The translations under genes were made by a program, and so were the position numbers. Below the pieces are notes generated by a model. It was not told the DNA's origin and ran no database searches. It saw only the letters and a program-made list of their open reading frames with translations. This document shows, piece by piece, positions 55,612-64,000 of a DNA stretch of 64,000 nt (the stretch's first letter is position 1; each line of letters starts with the position of its first letter). Source of the stretch: Oscillibacter valericigenes (GTDB lineage: Bacteria; Bacillota; Clostridia; Oscillospirales; Oscillospiraceae); contig NZ_JAFBIV010000003.1 in assembly GCF_021531915.1 (NCBI RefSeq), positions 124,001-188,000 on the forward strand, read 5' to 3'.

Positions 55612-55827
55612 ATGAAAACGATTACGATTAACACTGAATTTATCAAGCTACAGGACCTGCTGAAATTTGCCAACCTGGTGGAGACCGGCGGCATGGCCAA
55701 GGAGTGCGTCCAGTGCGGCGAGGTCCTGGTCAACGGAGAGGTCTGCACCATGCGGGGCAAGAAGATCCGTCCCGGGGACGTGGTGTCCTTTGAGGGACAG
55801 GAACTGACGGTCGCCTATGCGGATTGA
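55612..55827 (+). CDS. yaaA: S4 domain RNA-binding protein (YaaA)
   Basis: The 71-residue protein is one S4 domain: [48 protein letters not shown]. It is the conserved small gene between dnaN and recF (RlbA/YaaA) and is thought to act in ribosome assembly. It begins 3 bases after dnaN and overlaps recF by 11 bases. Confidence 0.92.
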
Positions 55828-56920
55828 CCGCCTGGAACTGGAGAACTTCCGCAATTACGGCTGCCAGACCGTGGACTTCGACGCCCGGTGCAACGTGATC
55901 TTCGGCGAGAATGCCCAGGGAAAGACCAACCTGCTGGAGGCGCTGGTGTACCTCTCCTGCGGCAAGTCGCCACGGGCCAGGACGGACCGGGAGATGATCC
56001 GGTTCGATGCCCCCTCCGCCCGGATGCTGGCTCAGGCATTTGCCCGGGACCGGGAATTTAAGGTACAGGTAGACCTGTTCCGGGACCGGCGGCGGAAAAT
56101 GTCCGTCAATCAGGTGCCCGCCAAAAACAGCGCGGCCCTCAGTGACGTGTACAACACCGTGTTTTTCTGTCCGGAGGACCTGTTTCTGATCCGGGAGGGA
56201 GCCGCCGCCCGGCGGAGGTTCATGGATACAGCTTTATGTCAACTTCGGCCCCGGTACGCCGCCGTCCTGGCGGAGTATAACCGGGCCTACGACCACAAAA
56301 CTCGCATTCTGCGGGACGCCGAGGAGCGGCCGGACTTGCTGACCGCCCTGCCGGAGTTCAATGAGCAGCTGGTGCGCTTCGGCGCGGTGCTGGTCCACTA
56401 CCGCCACCAGTTCGCCCTGCGGCTGCGGGAATACGCCGCCGCCAACCATCGGGAGTGTTCTGGCGGAAGAGAGCAGCTGGATATCCAATATCAGACGGTG
56501 TCCTCTGTCACGGACCCGGCCGTGGACATTGCAGTTCTGACCGAGCAGCTCCGGCAGCACATGGAATCCCATCAGTCAGCGGAGCGGTCCTCCCGTTTGT
56601 GCTTGTCGGGACCACACAAGGATGACCTGTTGGTAACCATTAACGGCCGGGACGCCAAGCAGTACGCCTCCCAGGGTCAGACCCGGACGGCGGCTCTGGC
56701 GCTGAAGCTGGCAGAGCGGGAGATCTATAAAAACGTCACCGGAGAGTATCCAGTGCTGCTTCTGGACGATGTTTTGAGCGAACTGGACCCGAAACGGCAA
56801 GAGTTCGTCCTGAACCGCATCAACGGCGGGCAGGTGTTCATCACCTGCTGCGAGGATGACCGCCTGCCGCAGCTTCTGGGCGGCAAGGTGCTTCATGTAC
56901 ATGGCGGGGAGTTGGTCTGA
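55817..56920 (+). CDS. recF: DNA recombination/repair protein RecF
   Basis: The 367-residue SMC-like ATPase has Walker [15 protein letters not shown] (near 30), signature [10 protein letters not shown] and Walker [12 protein letters not shown]. RecF helps load RecA at gaps. It overlaps the S4 gene and closes the dnaA-dnaN-yaaA-recF group. Repeat A copy 3 separates it from the next gene; a partial hairpin (TCTTTTGAAAAGA near 56960-56972) lies just after it. Confidence 0.95.
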
Positions 56921-56997
56921 TGGTCCTCCTGCCAGGGGACGGAGGAGGAAAGGGAAGGACTCTTTTGAAAAGAGCCCTCCCCTTTGGAAACCTCACC

Positions 56998-57330
56998 CGG
57001 GGACAGGGCAGCGGCAGCGGAAAGAGAAGCAGCGGCCATTCGATGACCACTACCGAAAGCCGCACCCACGCCATCAAATGCGGAGACGTACTTTCTCTGT
57101 TCCCCAAAGACTCAAGCGCACCCGGCAGGGGACTATCAAATTACGTAAGCACCGGCTACGACAACCTTCGCGTTTGCGGTCAACTTGACACTTCCGTGTC
57201 AAGTTGAGCCGCCGAAAGCGCCTTTTTCTTCCACCGGGCGCGGCGCATTCTTTTTCGGCAAGACGAAAAAGAATGAGGGGCGCCTTTCAGCGCCGCAAAG
57301 CGGCGCATCCCCCCGTCCCCTATAAGAGGA
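56998..57330 (+). repeat. dispersed structured repeat, family A, copy 3
   Basis: This fills most of the 433-base gap between recF and the PH-domain gene. The 5' block (CAGCGGCAGCGGAAAGAGAAGC, CCGAAAGCCGCACCCA, AAATGCGGA, TCTCTGTTCCCC, GCGCACCCGG) matches copies 1 and 2. Hairpins: 57180-57191/57196-57207 (TCAACTTGACAC arms, TTCC loop), 57246-57257/57264-57275 (12 bp, GCAAGA loop) and 57290-57296/57300-57306 (7 bp, AAA loop). The arms differ from copy 1 at several positions, each matched by a change in the partner arm. Confidence 0.8.
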
Positions 57331-57353
57331 CTACCTCAGAAAGGAGATTTTCT

Positions 57354-57770
57354 ATGGAACCTATCCAATATCTCTGGAAAGACCGCAAGCGTCATCTTGG
57401 CCTTCCCCTGTCCTTCACCCGCTACCGTCTCAGTGAAGACCGCCTGTTCTGTGAAAGGGGTTTTTTCAATATCAAGGAAGATGAGGTGCTGCTGTATCGT
57501 GTCCGGGACCTGCAACTGAACATGTCCCTGGGTCAGCGCATCTTCGGCGTGGGCACCATCTGCGTGGTGTCCTCGGACAAGAGTGTGCCACATCTGGATC
57601 TGAAGAATGTGAAGCAGCCTCGTGAGGTCAAGGAGCTGATCCATCAGAACGTGGAAGCCGCCAAGGACAAGCGCCGCATGCGCACCACGGAGATCATGAG
57701 TGACATGGACGCGGATGACTTCTCCCATGATTTTGATGATGGTCTGGACGATGTGAACGGAGCAGAGTAA
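57354..57770 (+). CDS. PH-domain (bPH_2-like) protein
   Basis: The 138-residue protein (MEPIQYLWKDRKRHLGLPLSF, then YRLSEDRLFCERGFFNIKEDEVLLYRVRDLQLNMSLGQRIFGVGTICVVSSDK) has the bacterial PH fold pattern: a strand ending in Y-x-L-(T/S), a short basic loop and a beta-hairpin, as in YdbT-type proteins but without membrane helices. The acidic tail (about 110-138) is unlike the usual family. Function unknown. ATG 57354 follows AAAGGAGAT. remB starts 4 bases after its stop. Confidence 0.8.
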   Translation: MEPIQYLWKDRKRHLGLPLSFTRYRLSEDRLFCERGFFNIKEDEVLLYRVRDLQLNMSLGQRIFGVGTICVVSSDKSVPHLDLKNVKQPREVKELIHQNVEAAKDKRRMRTTEIMSDMDADDFSHDFDDGLDDVNGAE

Positions 57771-57774
57771 AACC

Positions 57775-58041
57775 ATGTATCTGCATATCGGTCAGAACGA
57801 GATCATTCAAGAGCACCGGATCATCGGTATCTTTGATCTGGACAAGTGCTCCACCAGTAAGCGGACCCGGGACTATCTGTCCGCCGCTGACAAAGAGGGT
57901 GTGGTGCTGGATATCTCCGGCGATATCCCCAAGAGCTTCGTGGTCTGCGACCATCCCTACCATGAGCAGATCGTCTATCTGAGCCAGCTGAACACCTCCA
58001 CCCTGAAAAACCGGGCGGAGAGCCGAAAACTGGAGTTGTGA
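57775..58041 (+). CDS. remB: extracellular matrix regulator RemB (DUF370)
   Basis: The 88-residue protein starts MYLHIGQNEIIQEHRIIGIFDLDKCSTSKRTRDYLSAADKEG, a good match to DUF370/RemB. The related RemA is a DNA-binding regulator of biofilm and osmoprotection genes in Bacillus. remB is commonly near recF and gyrB. It is 4 bases from the PH gene and 1 base from the next. Confidence 0.88.
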   Translation: MYLHIGQNEIIQEHRIIGIFDLDKCSTSKRTRDYLSAADKEGVVLDISGDIPKSFVVCDHPYHEQIVYLSQLNTSTLKNRAESRKLEL

Positions 58042-58042
58042 T

Positions 58043-58357
58043 ATGCACATTTGGAACACATTTCTTTTGGTTTTGCGTTTTTGGGAAATTGGCAGTCCCA
58101 GCCGCGTGCTGCTTCCTTGTACCTGCTTGTTGTTCGCCGTACTCCACGGGTTTCTCCGTTGGGGAACAAATGGGCATGGGCGGTGGCTGCCTGTTCTTTT
58201 GACGGCGACGATTTTGGCCTGCGAGGTCACCATTTTGCCGCTCCACAGCTATCTGGCAATGCTGGTGGTCATAGGAATGTGCTACGCGGAAGCTGCATTA
58301 TTGGGTACAGGATTGGGAGAGCTGTTCTATCGTTTTTTTGATAAGAAAGTATTCTGA
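58043..58357 (+). CDS. 104-residue membrane protein, unknown function
   Basis: A short protein with about three membrane helices (near 20-35, 47-65 and 70-95) and charged ends (FFDKKVF). I do not recognise a family. It starts 1 base after remB, with GGAG inside the remB end, so it is the last gene of a PH-remB unit upstream of gyrB. GC content dips relative to its neighbours. Confidence 0.6.
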   Translation: MHIWNTFLLVLRFWEIGSPSRVLLPCTCLLFAVLHGFLRWGTNGHGRWLPVLLTATILACEVTILPLHSYLAMLVVIGMCYAEAALLGTGLGELFYRFFDKKVF

Positions 58358-58378
58358 ATCATTCTTTGTATGAGATTG

Positions 58379-58431
58379 AAGGCAAGGAGAAACGGGCCGG
58401 AAATGGCTCCGGCCCGGCTCTTCTTGCCTTG
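58379..58431 (+). terminator. imperfect long hairpin before gyrB
   Basis: AAGGCAAG...CGGGCCGG pairs with CCGGCCCG...CTTGCCTT (58379-58401/58410-58431). It may end the PH-remB unit, though there is no T-run, or act in the gyrB leader. Confidence 0.5.
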
Positions 58432-58466
58432 TGTAAGGAAAACGACCCCTTGAAAGGAGAAACCAC

Positions 58467-60434
58467 ATGGCTGAAAATGAAATTTTGAATTCCACGGCAG
58501 TCAATGCGCAGAACGAGTATGACGCCTCCGAGATCCAGGTCCTGGAGGGACTGGAAGCTGTCCGGAAGCGTCCCGGTATGTACATTGGCTCCACCTCCAC
58601 CTCCGGTCTCCACCATCTGGTGTACGAGATCGTGGACAACGCCATCGATGAGGCCCTGGCAGGCTACTGCACGGAGATCCAGGTCACCATCAACGAGGGC
58701 GACACCATCACCGTGGTGGACAACGGCCGCGGCATCCCCGTGGACATCCAGGCCCAGACCGGCAAGCCAGCTCTGGAAGTGGTCTATACCGTCCTCCATG
58801 CCGGCGGCAAGTTCGGCGGCGGCGGCTACAAGGTCTCCGGCGGCCTCCATGGCGTGGGCGCCTCCGTGGTCAACGCCCTGTCCGAATGGCTGACGGTCCA
58901 GGTCCACCGGGATGGTAAGATCCATGAGATGAAGTTCGCCCGGGGCCACGTGACCCAGGAGATGACCGTGGTGGGTACCACCGACCACACCGGCACCACC
59001 GTCACCTTTAAGCCGGACCCGGAGATGTTCGAGGACACCATTTACAATTATGAGACCCTCCACACCCGTATGCGGGAGGAGGCCTTCCTGAACGCGGGCC
59101 TGCGCATCACCATTGCCGATGAGCGCGCTGCTTCCGCCAACAAGCCGGAGAGCGAGCGGTATCACTCCATGTGCTATGAGGGCGGTATCCGGGAGTTCGT
59201 CACCTGGCTCAACAAGAGCAAGGACGCCCTGCATAACGACGTCATTTACATGGCCGGCCAGAAGGATGACTCCGTGGCGGAGGTGGCCCTGCAGTACAAC
59301 GACGGCTATAACGAGACCATCCTCTCCTTTGCCAACAACGTCCACACCCCCGAGGGCGGCATGCACGAGGAGGGCTTCAAGAGGGCACTGACCACTGTGC
59401 TGAACAATTACGGCCGCAAGATCAAGATGCTGAAGGACGACGAGAAGATCTCCGGCGAGGACTGCCGGGAGGGTCTGACCTGCGTCATCTCCGTGAAGCT
59501 GACCGAGGCCCAGTTCGAGGGTCAGACAAAGGCCAAGCTGGGCAACAGCGAGATCCGGACCCTGGTGAACAACATCGTCTCCGACAAGCTGGATACCTTC
59601 CTGGAGGAGAATCCCCAGGTGGGCCGCATGATCCTGGACAAGGCTCTCACCGCCAACCGCGCCCGGGAAGCCGCCCGCAAGGCCCGTGAATCCATCCGCC
59701 GCAAGACCGCTCTGGGCGGCGCGGCCATGCCTGACAAGCTGCGGGACTGCAATGAAAACAACCCCGAGCTGACCGAGATTTATATCGTCGAGGGTGACTC
59801 CGCAGGCGGCTCCGCCACCCAGGGCCGGGACAGCCGGTTCCAGGCCATCCTCCCCCTGTGGGGCAAGATGCTGAACGTGGAGAAGGCCCGGGCCGACAAG
59901 GTCTACGGCAACGACAAGCTCCAGCCCGTCATCACGGCTCTGGGCGCCGGCATCGGCGATGAGTTCGACCCCGCCAAGCTGCGGTATCACAAAGTCATCA
60001 TCATGGCCGATGCCGATGTGGACGGCTCCCATATCCGCACCCTGCTGCTGACCTTCTTCTTCCGCTTCATGCGGCCTTTGATTGAGCACGGCTACGTCTA
60101 TTCCGCCGTGCCGCCCCTGTATAAGCTGACTAGGGGCAAAACCACAAGGGTAGCCTTCTCCGACGAGGAGCGGGACGCCGTGTCCGCCGAGATGCGGGGC
60201 GGCAACCCCAACGTGAAGATCGACATCTCCCGCTTCAAGGGCCTGGGCGAGATGAACCCCCATGAGCTGTGGGAGACCACTATGGACCCGGAGAAGCGGA
60301 CCCTGCGCCGCATTACCCTGGACGACGCCGTGAAGGCCGACGAGACCTTCACCATCCTCATGGGCGAAAAGGTGGAACCCCGGAAGGAGTTCATCGAGAA
60401 GAACGCCCAGTACGCCGTCAATCTGGATTATTAA
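58467..60434 (+). CDS. gyrB: DNA gyrase subunit B
   Basis: The 655-residue protein has the GHKL ATPase fold ([39 protein letters not shown]), a transducer domain, the TOPRIM motifs [11 protein letters not shown] and DADVDGSHI, and the C-terminal [12 protein letters not shown]-type core. With GyrA it introduces negative supercoils. GAAAGGAG precedes ATG 58467. gyrA follows after 15 bases. Confidence 0.98.
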
Positions 60435-60449
60435 AGGAGGGATACCGAC

Positions 60450-62945
60450 ATGTCTAAGAAACCCCAATACGACCCCGAGGAGATTCGGTATCCCGACCAG
60501 AAGATCGTGGAATCTCCCCTGGTCCCCGAGATGGAGAAATCCTATATCGAGTACGCCATGAGCGTCATCGTGGGCCGCGCCCTGCCGGATGTGCGGGACG
60601 GCCTGAAGCCCGTCCACCGGCGTATTCTGTATGCCATGTACGAGGACAACCTGACCTCTGACCGCCCCTTCAAGAAGTCCGCCACCTGCGTGGGCGACGT
60701 GCTGGGCCGGTACCATCCCCATGGCGATGCCTCCGTCTACGACGCCCTGGTCCGTCTGGCCCAGGACTTCTCCATGCGCTATATGCTGGTGGACGGCCAC
60801 GGCAACTTCGGCTCCGTGGATGGCGATCCCCCGGCGGCCTACCGTTACACCGAGGCCCGCATGAGCAAGATTTCCGAGGAAATGCTGCGGGATATTGAGA
60901 AGGAGACCGTGGACTGGGACCCCAACTTCGACGAGAGCCGGAAGGAGCCTCGGGTCCTCCCTGCCCGTTTCCCCAACCTGCTGGTCAACGGCTCCAGCGG
61001 CATCGCCGTGGGCATGGCAACCAACATCCCGCCCCACAACCTGCGGGAGGTCATCGGCGCCTGCATTTGCGTGCTGGATGACCCCAACGCCACCCTGGCG
61101 GACCTGATGCAGCACATCAAGGGCCCCGACTTCCCCACAAAGGGCATCATCATGGGCCGCAGCGGCATCCGGGCGGCCTACGCCACCGGCCGGGGCCGGC
61201 TGGTGATCCGGGCGCGGCATGAGTTTGAGGAGTTCGGCAAGGACCGGACCCGCATCGTCATCACGGAAATTCCCTATCAGGTCAACAAGCGCATGCTGAT
61301 CAAGAGCATGGCCGACCAGGTGGAGGACAAGCGGCTGGAGGGCATCTCCGATATCCGGGACGAGTCTGACCGCAACGGTATGCGCATCGTCATCGAGCTG
61401 AAGCGGGATGCCAATCCCCAGGTGGTGCTGAACCGCCTGTTCAGCCAGACCCAGCTGCAGACCACCTTCGCCATCAACATGCTGGCCCTGGTGGACAACC
61501 AGTCTCAGCCCAAAATCCTGTCCCTGCGGCACATCATCGACGAGTACCTGGCTTTCCAGGAAGAGATCATAGTCCGCCGCACCCGGTACGACCTGAAAAA
61601 GGCCCAGGAGCGTGCTCACCTGCTGGAGGGCCTGCTGATCGCCCAGGACAACATCGACGAGGTCATCCGCATCATCCGCAGCGCCTATGACGACGCCAAG
61701 CAGAAGCTGATGGAGCGGTTCGGTCTGGACGATATCCAGGCCCAGGCCATCCTGGACATGCGGCTGAAAGCCCTCCAGGGCCTGGATCGGGAGAAGCTGG
61801 AGACCGAGTACAAGGAACTGGAGGAGAAGATCGCCTGGTACAACAAGGTCCTCTCCGACGAGGGACTGGTCCGCCAAATCCTGAAAGAGGAATTGCAGGC
61901 CATCTCCGACAAGTTCGGCGACGACCGCATGACCGAGATCCAGGACGTGGAGGACGAGATCGATATCGAGGACCTGATCGAGGAGGAGCAGTGCGTCTTC
62001 ACCATGACCCAGGCGGGCTATATCAAGCGGACTCCCGTCAGCGAGTATGCCGCCCAGGGCAAGGGCGGTCAGGGCCGCAAGGGCATCACCACCCGGGACG
62101 AGGACTACGTGGTGGATGTGTTCACCGCCTCCACCCATGACTATATCCTTTTCTTCACCGACACCGGCAAGGTGTACCGAAAGAAGGGCTATCAGATCCC
62201 CGAGAGCGGCAAGGCCGCCAAGGGCACCAATATCATCAACATTCTGCAGGTGGAACCGGGCGAGCGGGTCCAGACCATGATCCACTTCCGGGAGACCGGC
62301 AACGAGGAGCTGTTCCTGGTGATGGTCACCCGGAACGGCACGGTCAAGCGGCTGCCGGTGTCCACATTGAAGAATCTCCGCAACAACGGCATCCGGGCCC
62401 TGACGCTGGACGAGGGCGACGCCCTGGTCACCGTCCGGGAGACCGACGGCACCAAGAAGATCCTGATTGCCACCCACGACGGCATGGCGGTCTGCTTCGA
62501 CGAGAACGACATCCGGCCCATGGGCCGTATCGCTGTGGGTGTCCGGGGCATCCGTCTCCGGGAAGGCGACTACGTGGTGGGCGCCGCCCGTGCCGCCGAG
62601 GGCAAGTGCGTCCTCTCCATTACGGAGAAGGGCTACGGCAAGCGGACGCCTGTGGAGGAGTACCGCATCACCAACCGCGGCGGTATCGGCATCAAGAACT
62701 ATATGGTGACGGAAAAGACCGGACCCGTGGTGGGTATCAAGGTGGTGGACGGCACCGAGGACCTGCTGCTGGTGACCCAGGCGGGCATCCTGATCCGCAC
62801 CGCTGTGGAGAACATCCGCACCGCCGGCCGTGCTACCCAGGGCGTTATCGTCATGCGCTTCAAGGAAGAAGGCGACAAGGTGATCGCCATGGCTCTGACG
62901 GACCGGGACGAGGCTGAGGAGACCGAGACTGGGACGGAGAACTGA
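60450..62945 (+). CDS. gyrA: DNA gyrase subunit A
   Basis: The 831-residue protein has the winged-helix domain with the quinolone-region [15 protein letters not shown] and the active-site tyrosine in [10 protein letters not shown], a coiled-coil domain ([16 protein letters not shown]), and a C-terminal six-bladed domain whose GyrA-box-like motif is GQGRKGI rather than the textbook QRRGGKG. The tail after about 800 is acidic. AAAGGAGG precedes the ATG. Confidence 0.98.
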
Positions 62946-62968
62946 GACCGTATAAGGAGGAACCAGAA

Positions 62969-63229
62969 ATGCCGGGTTTGGGATTTGCAATTGCAAAACT
63001 GCTTGTGATTGGTGTGGCCTTAGGACTTGGAGCGGCATTCCTGTATCTTTGGATTCTGAAACGGTTTACGAAAAAGGACACGCCCACGAAACCGCCCCAT
63101 ACCCCAAAGCATGAGAGCGAAGTGGTACAGAAGCAGATATCCCAACTTCGCCGTCAGTTGGACAGCGGCCTGCTGACAAAAGAGGAATACGCCGCCAAAA
63201 AGAAGGAACTTCTGCAGGAGAAGCCGTAA
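62969..63229 (+). CDS. SHOCT-domain membrane protein
   Basis: An 86-residue protein with one membrane helix (about 6-30), a Lys/Thr/Pro linker and a C-terminal SHOCT motif (ISQLRRQLDSGLLTKEEYAAKKKELLQ). SHOCT domains often sit on membrane or phage-related proteins and may bind oligomers. AAGGAGG precedes the ATG. It follows gyrA by 23 bases and is probably co-transcribed. A repeat linked to the DUF559 gene begins right after it. Confidence 0.85.
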   Translation: MPGLGFAIAKLLVIGVALGLGAAFLYLWILKRFTKKDTPTKPPHTPKHESEVVQKQISQLRRQLDSGLLTKEEYAAKKKELLQEKP

Positions 63230-63233
63230 AAAA

Positions 63234-63283
63234 GCCTTCCCCCATCAGGGGGGAAGGTGGCGCGAAGCACTGGATGAGGGGGC
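63234..63283. repeat. left inverted repeat of the DUF559 cassette
   Basis: GCCTTCCCCCATCAGGGG...GGAAGGTGGCGCGAAGCACTGGATGAGGGGG. It is an inverted copy of the repeat at 63633-63686 and also folds on itself (CTTCCCCC/GGGGGAAG type). I recognise the GGAAGGTGGC-x-GAAG-x-GGATGAGGGGG style as an extragenic repeat of gut Clostridia. Confidence 0.75.
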
Positions 63284-63292
63284 CTGTGTGAC

Positions 63293-63676
63293 ATGGACGC
63301 GCATATGAAACGATACGCGCAGGCCCTCCGGCGAAACGCGACAAAAGAAGAGCGTCGCCTATGGTATGATTTTCTGAAAGCATACCCGGTCCAGTTCCGG
63401 CGGCAGGTGGTCTTTGGCAGGTATATCCTGGATTTTTACTGCGCAAAGGCAAAGCTGGCAGTGGAACTGGATGGCTCCCAGCACTATCAGGACGAGGGTC
63501 CTGCGCAGGATGCGGCGCGCTCCGCGTATCTGCAAGAGACGTATGGCATCCATGTCCTGCGTTTTACAAATTTGGAACTACAACGTCAGTTTGAGGGTGT
63601 CTGCCAGAGGATCGACATGGAGGTCAGACGGAGGTCCCCCTCATCCGTCCCCTGCGGGGACACCTTCCCCCCATGA
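63293..63676 (+). CDS. DUF559 (Vsr/restriction-fold) endonuclease-like protein
   Basis: The 127-residue protein has the DUF559 pattern: [25 protein letters not shown], then [31 protein letters not shown], with the D...ExD residues of a PD-(D/E)xK nuclease in ILDFYC and VELDG, and an RF(T/R)N-x-x-(L/V) strand. The family is related to Vsr mismatch endonucleases but function is mostly unknown. The last 16 or so residues and the stop are encoded inside the right inverted repeat, and the left repeat supplies the GAGGGGG in front of the start. This suggests the gene and repeats move as one unit. Confidence 0.88.
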
Positions 63677-63686
63677 GGGGGAAGGC
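63633..63686. repeat. right inverted repeat of the DUF559 cassette
   Basis: Reads GGTCCCCCTCATCCGTCCCC...ACCTTCCCCCCATGAGGGGGAAGGC. Its reverse complement aligns with the left repeat (63234-63283) over about 50 bases: CCTTCCCCC, GGGGGGAAGGTG and GGATGAGGGGG are shared. It overlaps the 3' end of the DUF559 gene. Confidence 0.75.
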
Positions 63687-63701
63687 AACGGGAGAAACCT
63701 T

Positions 63702-64000
63702 ATGAAAACAGTTACCATTTATACCGACGGGGCCTGCTCCGGCAATCCCGGGCCGGGAGGCTGGGGCGCGATCCTGATGTACGGCGCCCACAAGCGGGAG
63801 CTCTCCGGCGGCGAGGCCAACACCACCAACAACCGCATGGAGCTGACGGCGGTCATTGAAGCGCTTTCTATTTTGAAGGAGCCCTGTATCGTGGACCTGT
63901 GGTCTGACTCCAAGTACGTCATCGACGGCTTATCCAAGGGCTGGGCCAAGGGTTGGAAGGCCCGGGGCTGGGTGAAGAGCGACAAAAAGCCCGCCCTGAA
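63702..64000 (+). CDS. rnhA: ribonuclease HI (partial, runs off the window)
   Basis: The first 99 codons are present: [22 protein letters not shown] with catalytic Asp, [16 protein letters not shown] with catalytic Glu, and [12 protein letters not shown] with the third acidic residue. The fourth catalytic aspartate lies beyond the edge. RNase HI removes RNA from RNA-DNA hybrids. GGGAG precedes ATG 63702. Confidence 0.95.

Follow-up and report, generated by a model that had tools for sequence, protein, structure and literature searches.

Few bacterial repeats are as widespread as BoxC, PIT and related triplex motifs; those of Escherichia coli have been known since the 1990s. The E. coli motif folds as a triplex in vitro, as seen by CD and NMR (Holder et al. 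2015 NAR, PMC4666352). It occurs 23 times in MG1655, in variable regions, where type A motifs are paired with type B motifs in inverted orientation (PMC4666352). Holder et al. never found transposases or integrases near the motif and left its origin open, and E. coli PIT elements showed neither promoter nor terminator activity in the assays described (PMC4666352). DUF559 and YcjD are not mentioned in PMC4666352, and our search of the open-access PMC literature returned no paper connecting DUF559 to the repeats. It yielded a single functional study of any DUF559 protein, on Caulobacter VsrA (CCNA_02930), which is tied to cytosine methylation and SOS induction; the protein triggers SOS when the YGCCGGCR methylase is absent, and its effects were interpreted as VSP-type repair (PMC12907096).

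The window analysed here is a 64,000-nucleotide stretch of the Oscillibacter valericigenes genome, and near its end a DUF559 gene lies between two inverted repeats. We conclude that the repeats and the gene probably make up a single copy of an autonomous mobile element of ~450 bp that is widespread, has triplex motifs as its ends and carries the nuclease as its sole gene. The features of the locus are as follows.

62969..63229, + strand: SHOCT gene, upstream neighbour; its junction with rnhA is an empty site in genomes G013 and G070
63234..63284, + strand: left end, triplex-type repeat, from self-comparison of the sequence and mirroring between tail and arm
63235-63257, + strand: hairpin A of the left repeat
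~63258-63271, + strand: degenerate second hairpin of the left repeat
63272..63282, + strand: left purine tail GGATGAGGGGG, from the sequence; by position, the putative Shine-Dalgarno sequence of the nuclease gene
63293..63676, + strand: DUF559 (PF04480) nuclease ORF, 127 aa, from the Pfam match, conserved residues and predicted fold
63633..63686, - strand: right end, inverted triplex-type repeat, encoding the nuclease C-terminus and stop
63636-63646, - strand: purine tail of the right repeat
63647-63661, - strand: hairpin B of the right repeat
63663-63685, - strand: hairpin A of the right repeat
63703..64000, + strand: rnhA (partial), downstream neighbour

The bracketing of the gene by inverted repeats of ~50 nt is as originally predicted from the DNA, and the outer arms (63234-63259 and 63661-63686) are 85% complementary across 26 nt. 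The right repeat does encode the end of the DUF559 protein, in the form of its last codons and stop, although these number ~14 rather than the ~16 that had been claimed. The left repeat was also correctly said to provide the purine-rich stretch before the start codon: its tail, GGATGAGGGGG, lies 10 nt upstream of the ATG, a placement that would fit a Shine-Dalgarno role for the nuclease gene. Each repeat consists of hairpin A (CCTTCCCCC/GGGGGAAGG), a second hairpin that is decayed in the left copy, and the purine tail. The tail mirrors the arm GGGGGAAGG at 8/9 positions when A:A/T is allowed. An Rfam scan returned a sub-threshold serC match and nothing else. The whole 2.49-Mb genome holds ~7 copies of the repeat, two of them at its single DUF559 gene, and the flanks of control ORFs almost never carry such repeats; the bracketing in the window is therefore not a chance arrangement.

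The window protein is a DUF559 member, with an E-value of 1.6e-28 and 99.1 bits against a Pfam cut-off of 20.6. Among NCBIfam models it falls near YcjD, with a score under that model's cut-off. Residue D47 and the motif E58-x-D60-G-x-x-H64 are conserved, with D47, E58, D60 and H64 invariant across 23 sequences. The AlphaFold model (pLDDT 87.9) has a PD-(D/E)XK fold whose closest structures are 3hrl (NGO0050) and 3r3p (homing endonuclease I-Bth0305I), with weaker matches to the Vsr structures 1cw0 and 1vsr. As modelled, the protein is a small Vsr/EDxHD-like PD-(D/E)XK nuclease with predicted activity.

Repeat bracketing is general for DUF559 genes. Genes were taken from 149 related genomes and from the species collection (79 loci). 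For each gene, the upstream flank was compared with the reverse-complemented downstream flank. Of 127 DUF559 genes, 64% reached an inverted-repeat score of at least 32, compared with 0.9% of 211 control ORFs drawn from the same loci; at a score of at least 40, the values are 54% and 0%. The original prediction had proposed a search for the same repeats at other DUF559 genes, and a triplex motif finder run identically on genes and controls recovers repeats of this kind abundantly. A motif is present within 200 nt, at either end, for 88% of 129 DUF559 genes and 2.8% of 250 control ORFs, and at both ends for 61% and 0%, respectively. The ends are inverted in 68/79 two-ended elements, and elements of the common type measure 443-480 bp. 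The same DUF559-adjacent design occurs on named Pseudomonadota records (Sinorhizobium, Azospirillum, Sphingomonas, Novosphingobium, Neisseria, Photobacterium and E. coli), in three Deinococcus (Deinococcota) and in Synechocystis (Cyanobacteriota), with a weaker case in Picosynechococcus.

The sequences of the repeats vary by clade (CTTCCCC, CTCCCTT, CTCCCTC, CTCTCCC, CCCTCTTT and CCCCTCC), and one rule is common to all clades: the tail mirrors the purine arm of hairpin A, either A or T being accepted for A. The mirror score of tail against arm averages 6.15, compared with 4.12 for a direct reading, 3.79 for cross-family comparisons and 3.64 for shuffled tails, for which the highest of 200 set means is 4.08. 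Arm G is faced by tail G in 332/350 positions, and arm A (n=161) by tail A in 88 and tail T in 73; the motifs counted here were picked by mirror score, so these counts are partly selected. The outermost position was left out of the alignment and is thus independent of the mirror score. At this position arm G faces tail G in 33 cases and arm C faces tail T in 23, with 4 exceptions. T is tolerated opposite a C-G pair in an antiparallel purine triplex. The pairing between tail and arm covaries and reads as an antiparallel purine triplex (reverse-Hoogsteen) code: G:G, A:A/T, and T opposite C-G.

Judged by sequence, the repeats either match or are close variants of the intrastrand triplex motifs (BoxC/PIT) that Holder et al. 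described in 2015. As in those TM/ITx motifs, a hairpin with a purine arm is combined with an antiparallel purine third strand, and the E. coli motifs likewise form inverted pairs of types A and B, are intergenic and are polymorphic between strains. The third-strand rule of Holder et al., in which the purine arm is mirrored by G:G and A:A/T, holds at 8/9 triplets in the window ends. Their rule of a 1-6 nt loop fails for the window repeats, in which the second loop is 14-16 nt and contains a hairpin; loops of 1-6 nt are present in the E. coli, S. meliloti and Deinococcus motifs that adjoin DUF559. Clostridial motifs have a second hairpin (14-25 nt) that exceeds the 1-6 nt loop permitted in an ITxF search, and would be missed by that rule for this reason.

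Motif type is tied to the nuclease clade. The DUF559 tree was built with the C-terminal columns encoded by the right repeat left out. On it, motif type switches 34 times, compared with a mean of 76 and a minimum of 68 for shuffled types; the underlying alignment is short and its support values are modest. DUF559 paralogs in the same genome have a motif type in common in 2/24 pairs, compared with 15/24 for the nearest DUF559 relative in another genome. The motif thus travels with the nuclease and not with the host.

The elements have inserted repeatedly, with direct duplications of 23-56 bp. In genus g9, genomes G135 and G093 carry the element (L019 and L020); in G149 and G117 the site is uninterrupted and its flanks are 84-91% identical. 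A ~40-bp direct duplication of the target is present at the filled site and is single copy in G149 and G117; neither of these resolved empty sites contains a triplex motif. Flanking direct repeats with a score of at least 30 occur at 20/78 two-ended elements and 1/459 shuffled pairs, with part of the 20 being neighbouring motif copies and about eight being independent insertions that have clean duplications of unique sequence. The duplications of unique sequence measure 56 bp (L017), 39-40 bp (L019/L020), 42 bp (L166), 37 bp (L121), 40 bp (L123), 40 bp (L099), 30 bp (L094) and 23 bp (L112), and the duplicated target sequences are unrelated to the triplex motif. Most elements, including that of the window, have no visible duplication. 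In two Deinococcus species, the element occupies different positions within the hpa operon.

Gene-less copies, the solitary repeats for which the original prediction advised a search, were found both as single motifs and as pairs of left and right ends. Genome G086 has eight close motif pairs, each with one left-type and one right-type end and with tails inward. The ends are 61-63 bp apart, and the pairs make up a 155-bp family of MITE-like units with an alignable interior. All genomes with at least five CTCCCTT motifs have DUF559 (6/6, p 3e-5). DUF559 was not detected in G068 despite 132 motif copies, in a search that had no positive control of its own, nor in G063 (19 motifs) or in the motif-bearing genomes G026, G030, G092, G131 and G139. 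Such motif-bearing genomes require the assumption of another nuclease, of loss or of assembly gaps. The close pairs of G068 (L189-L192, L200) were rejected as simple derivatives: their tails point outward, their shared context is longer and no DUF559 was found, and they perhaps have a different mover. Arrays of motif-containing units with a spacing of ~210-228 bp were observed in G126 (C19:32154-33339, C15:37213-37822 and C11:127931-128605).

The motif near ycjD in E. coli is BoxC, and in K-12 motifs lie only on the 3' side of the gene. ycjD is present in ~62% of complete E. coli, in the sapF-fabI interval (L185-L188). Among the complete E. coli sampled, the median number of further motif places is 18 in ycjD-positive and 4 in ycjD-negative strains (p 2e-9), a link that follows phylogroups and is confounded by phylogeny. 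We rejected ycjD as a clean empty-site case, as strains lacking ycjD carry multidrug efflux genes there. Between E. coli strains, two BoxC loci differ by ~100-110 bp; no clean duplication was found at these two aligned loci. At L267 (E. coli strain War, hrpB-mrcB), a BoxC pair has been reduced to a single hairpin by internal deletion.

Several known systems share parts of this organisation. The window repeats had been predicted to be REP-like, and in organisation they are: as in REP/REPIN-RAYT systems, one gene lies between palindromic repeats, solitary and paired gene-less repeats exist, and repeat and enzyme are cognate. Their identity is different, since the repeats are purine-triplex motifs of the BoxC/PIT kind. 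The predicted difference in chemistry from RAYT also holds, the sole gene encoding a PD-(D/E)XK nuclease instead of an HUH Y1 enzyme, and the target duplications are long. A classical REP/RAYT system whose RAYT is distant or was missed would account for the organisation, but is scarcely credible when the motif follows a triplex code and the bracketed gene is DUF559. The genome contains no Y1_Tnp (PF01797) family member, and the window repeat sequence lacks a palindrome foot of the GTAG/CGTC type; RAYT/REP identity was ruled out by the absence of PF01797 together with the repeat sequence. DDE insertion sequences with MITEs resemble the element in their inverted ends, target duplication and internally deleted derivatives, and differ in that the DUF559 element has no DDE transposase and duplicates 23-56 bp. 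DDE target duplications are typically 2-14 bp.

The fold and recognisable homology that DUF559 shares with I-Bth0305I (3r3p) and NGO0050 (3hrl) raise the question of whether the nuclease is a free-standing homing endonuclease, which cuts solitary triplex motifs and is copied in by gene conversion. We regard this as improbable. DUF559 genes lie outside introns and are flanked by cognate repeats that are mostly inverted rather than direct, the duplicated sequences bear no relation to the motif, and the motif-free empty sites in G149 and G117 rule out homing into a resident motif at the resolved sites. An explanation of the repeats as purely regulatory hairpins that control DUF559 expression, through termination, ribosome binding or start-site occlusion, is very improbable: it fits the left tail at the expected RBS position and the overlap of the right repeat with the 3' end of the gene, but not the target duplications, the empty sites, the gene-less copies and pairs elsewhere, or the lack of promoter and terminator activity in E. 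coli PIT elements (PMC4666352). Less easily dismissed, though still unlikely, is that an unrelated transposase mobilises the element in trans, with DUF559 as cargo such as a Vsr-like mismatch-repair or defence nuclease. Caulobacter VsrA, which shares the DUF559 domain and in one background damages DNA in vivo, was studied as a mismatch-repair nuclease and is tied to cytosine methylation, SOS and VSP-type repair (PMC12907096), and some motif-rich genomes have no detected DUF559. Against a cargo role, DUF559 is the sole gene of ~450-bp elements in different clades and phyla, motif type goes with the nuclease clade and not with the host, this genome has no RAYT, and no transposase was seen near BoxC by Holder et al. 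(PMC4666352).

A mobile element with the nuclease as its own agent thus remains the preferred explanation, and on comparative grounds DUF559 is a strong candidate for the mover of BoxC-type repeats. A single-stranded element end, for example at a replication fork, would fold into a hairpin-triplex that the nuclease may recognise and nick. Host target DNA would be opened by staggered nicks ~40 nt apart, and host polymerase and ligase would complete the insertion and leave long duplications. Such nickase action would explain why the duplications are long and variable; the nuclease alone leaves strand transfer unexplained. Gene-less copies, whether single motifs such as E. coli BoxC or left and right pairs, would be non-autonomous derivatives, comparable to the REPs and REPINs of RAYTs. 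The chances are evenly balanced that this amounts to a new class of transposable element, in which a Vsr-like nuclease recognises triplex ends and moves by nicks with host-completed insertion (23-56-bp duplications), and from which BoxC/PIT/triplex repeats across the bacteria derive, with YcjD as the resident E. coli copy. The cognate nuclease link offers a function for DUF559 and a mover for the repeats, and E. coli ycjD makes the question testable. If true, the transposition principle is new, with triplex ends and no known transposase chemistry, and may yield a small DNA-structure-specific tool.

The history of the window copy itself differs from the original prediction of a recent insertion with empty sites in relatives. 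The empty sites exist: the SHOCT-rnhA junction is uninterrupted in the congeners G013 and G070, and the L019/L020 site is uninterrupted in G149 and G117. Both outcomes named in advance as refuting, a lack of association between the repeats and other DUF559 genes and a lack of empty sites, were checked and neither occurred. Other members have both an empty site and a target duplication, whereas no target duplication was found flanking the window copy. Together with the one decayed second hairpin and the occurrence of relatives from its nuclease clade at this gyrA-rnhA site in three further genomes (L015, L038 and L092), this indicates that the insertion is old or that the site is a hotspot, and the claim of recency falls. 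The surrounding recF-gyrB-gyrA-rnhA segment (window 55817-64000) is enriched in DUF559 elements, accounting for 12/128 other loci (L015, L029, L038, L043, L049, L092, L095, L122, L134, L141, L142 and L166), where other window ORFs match 0-2 loci each. L095 and L134 have the element in the gyrB-gyrA interval. At L015 and L038 the DUF559 frame reads through the right repeat into rnhA, giving fusion ORFs of ~290-350 aa. Antisense to gyrB-gyrA, the window also contains a 1559-aa open frame (58359-63038, - strand), which is probably a composition artefact.
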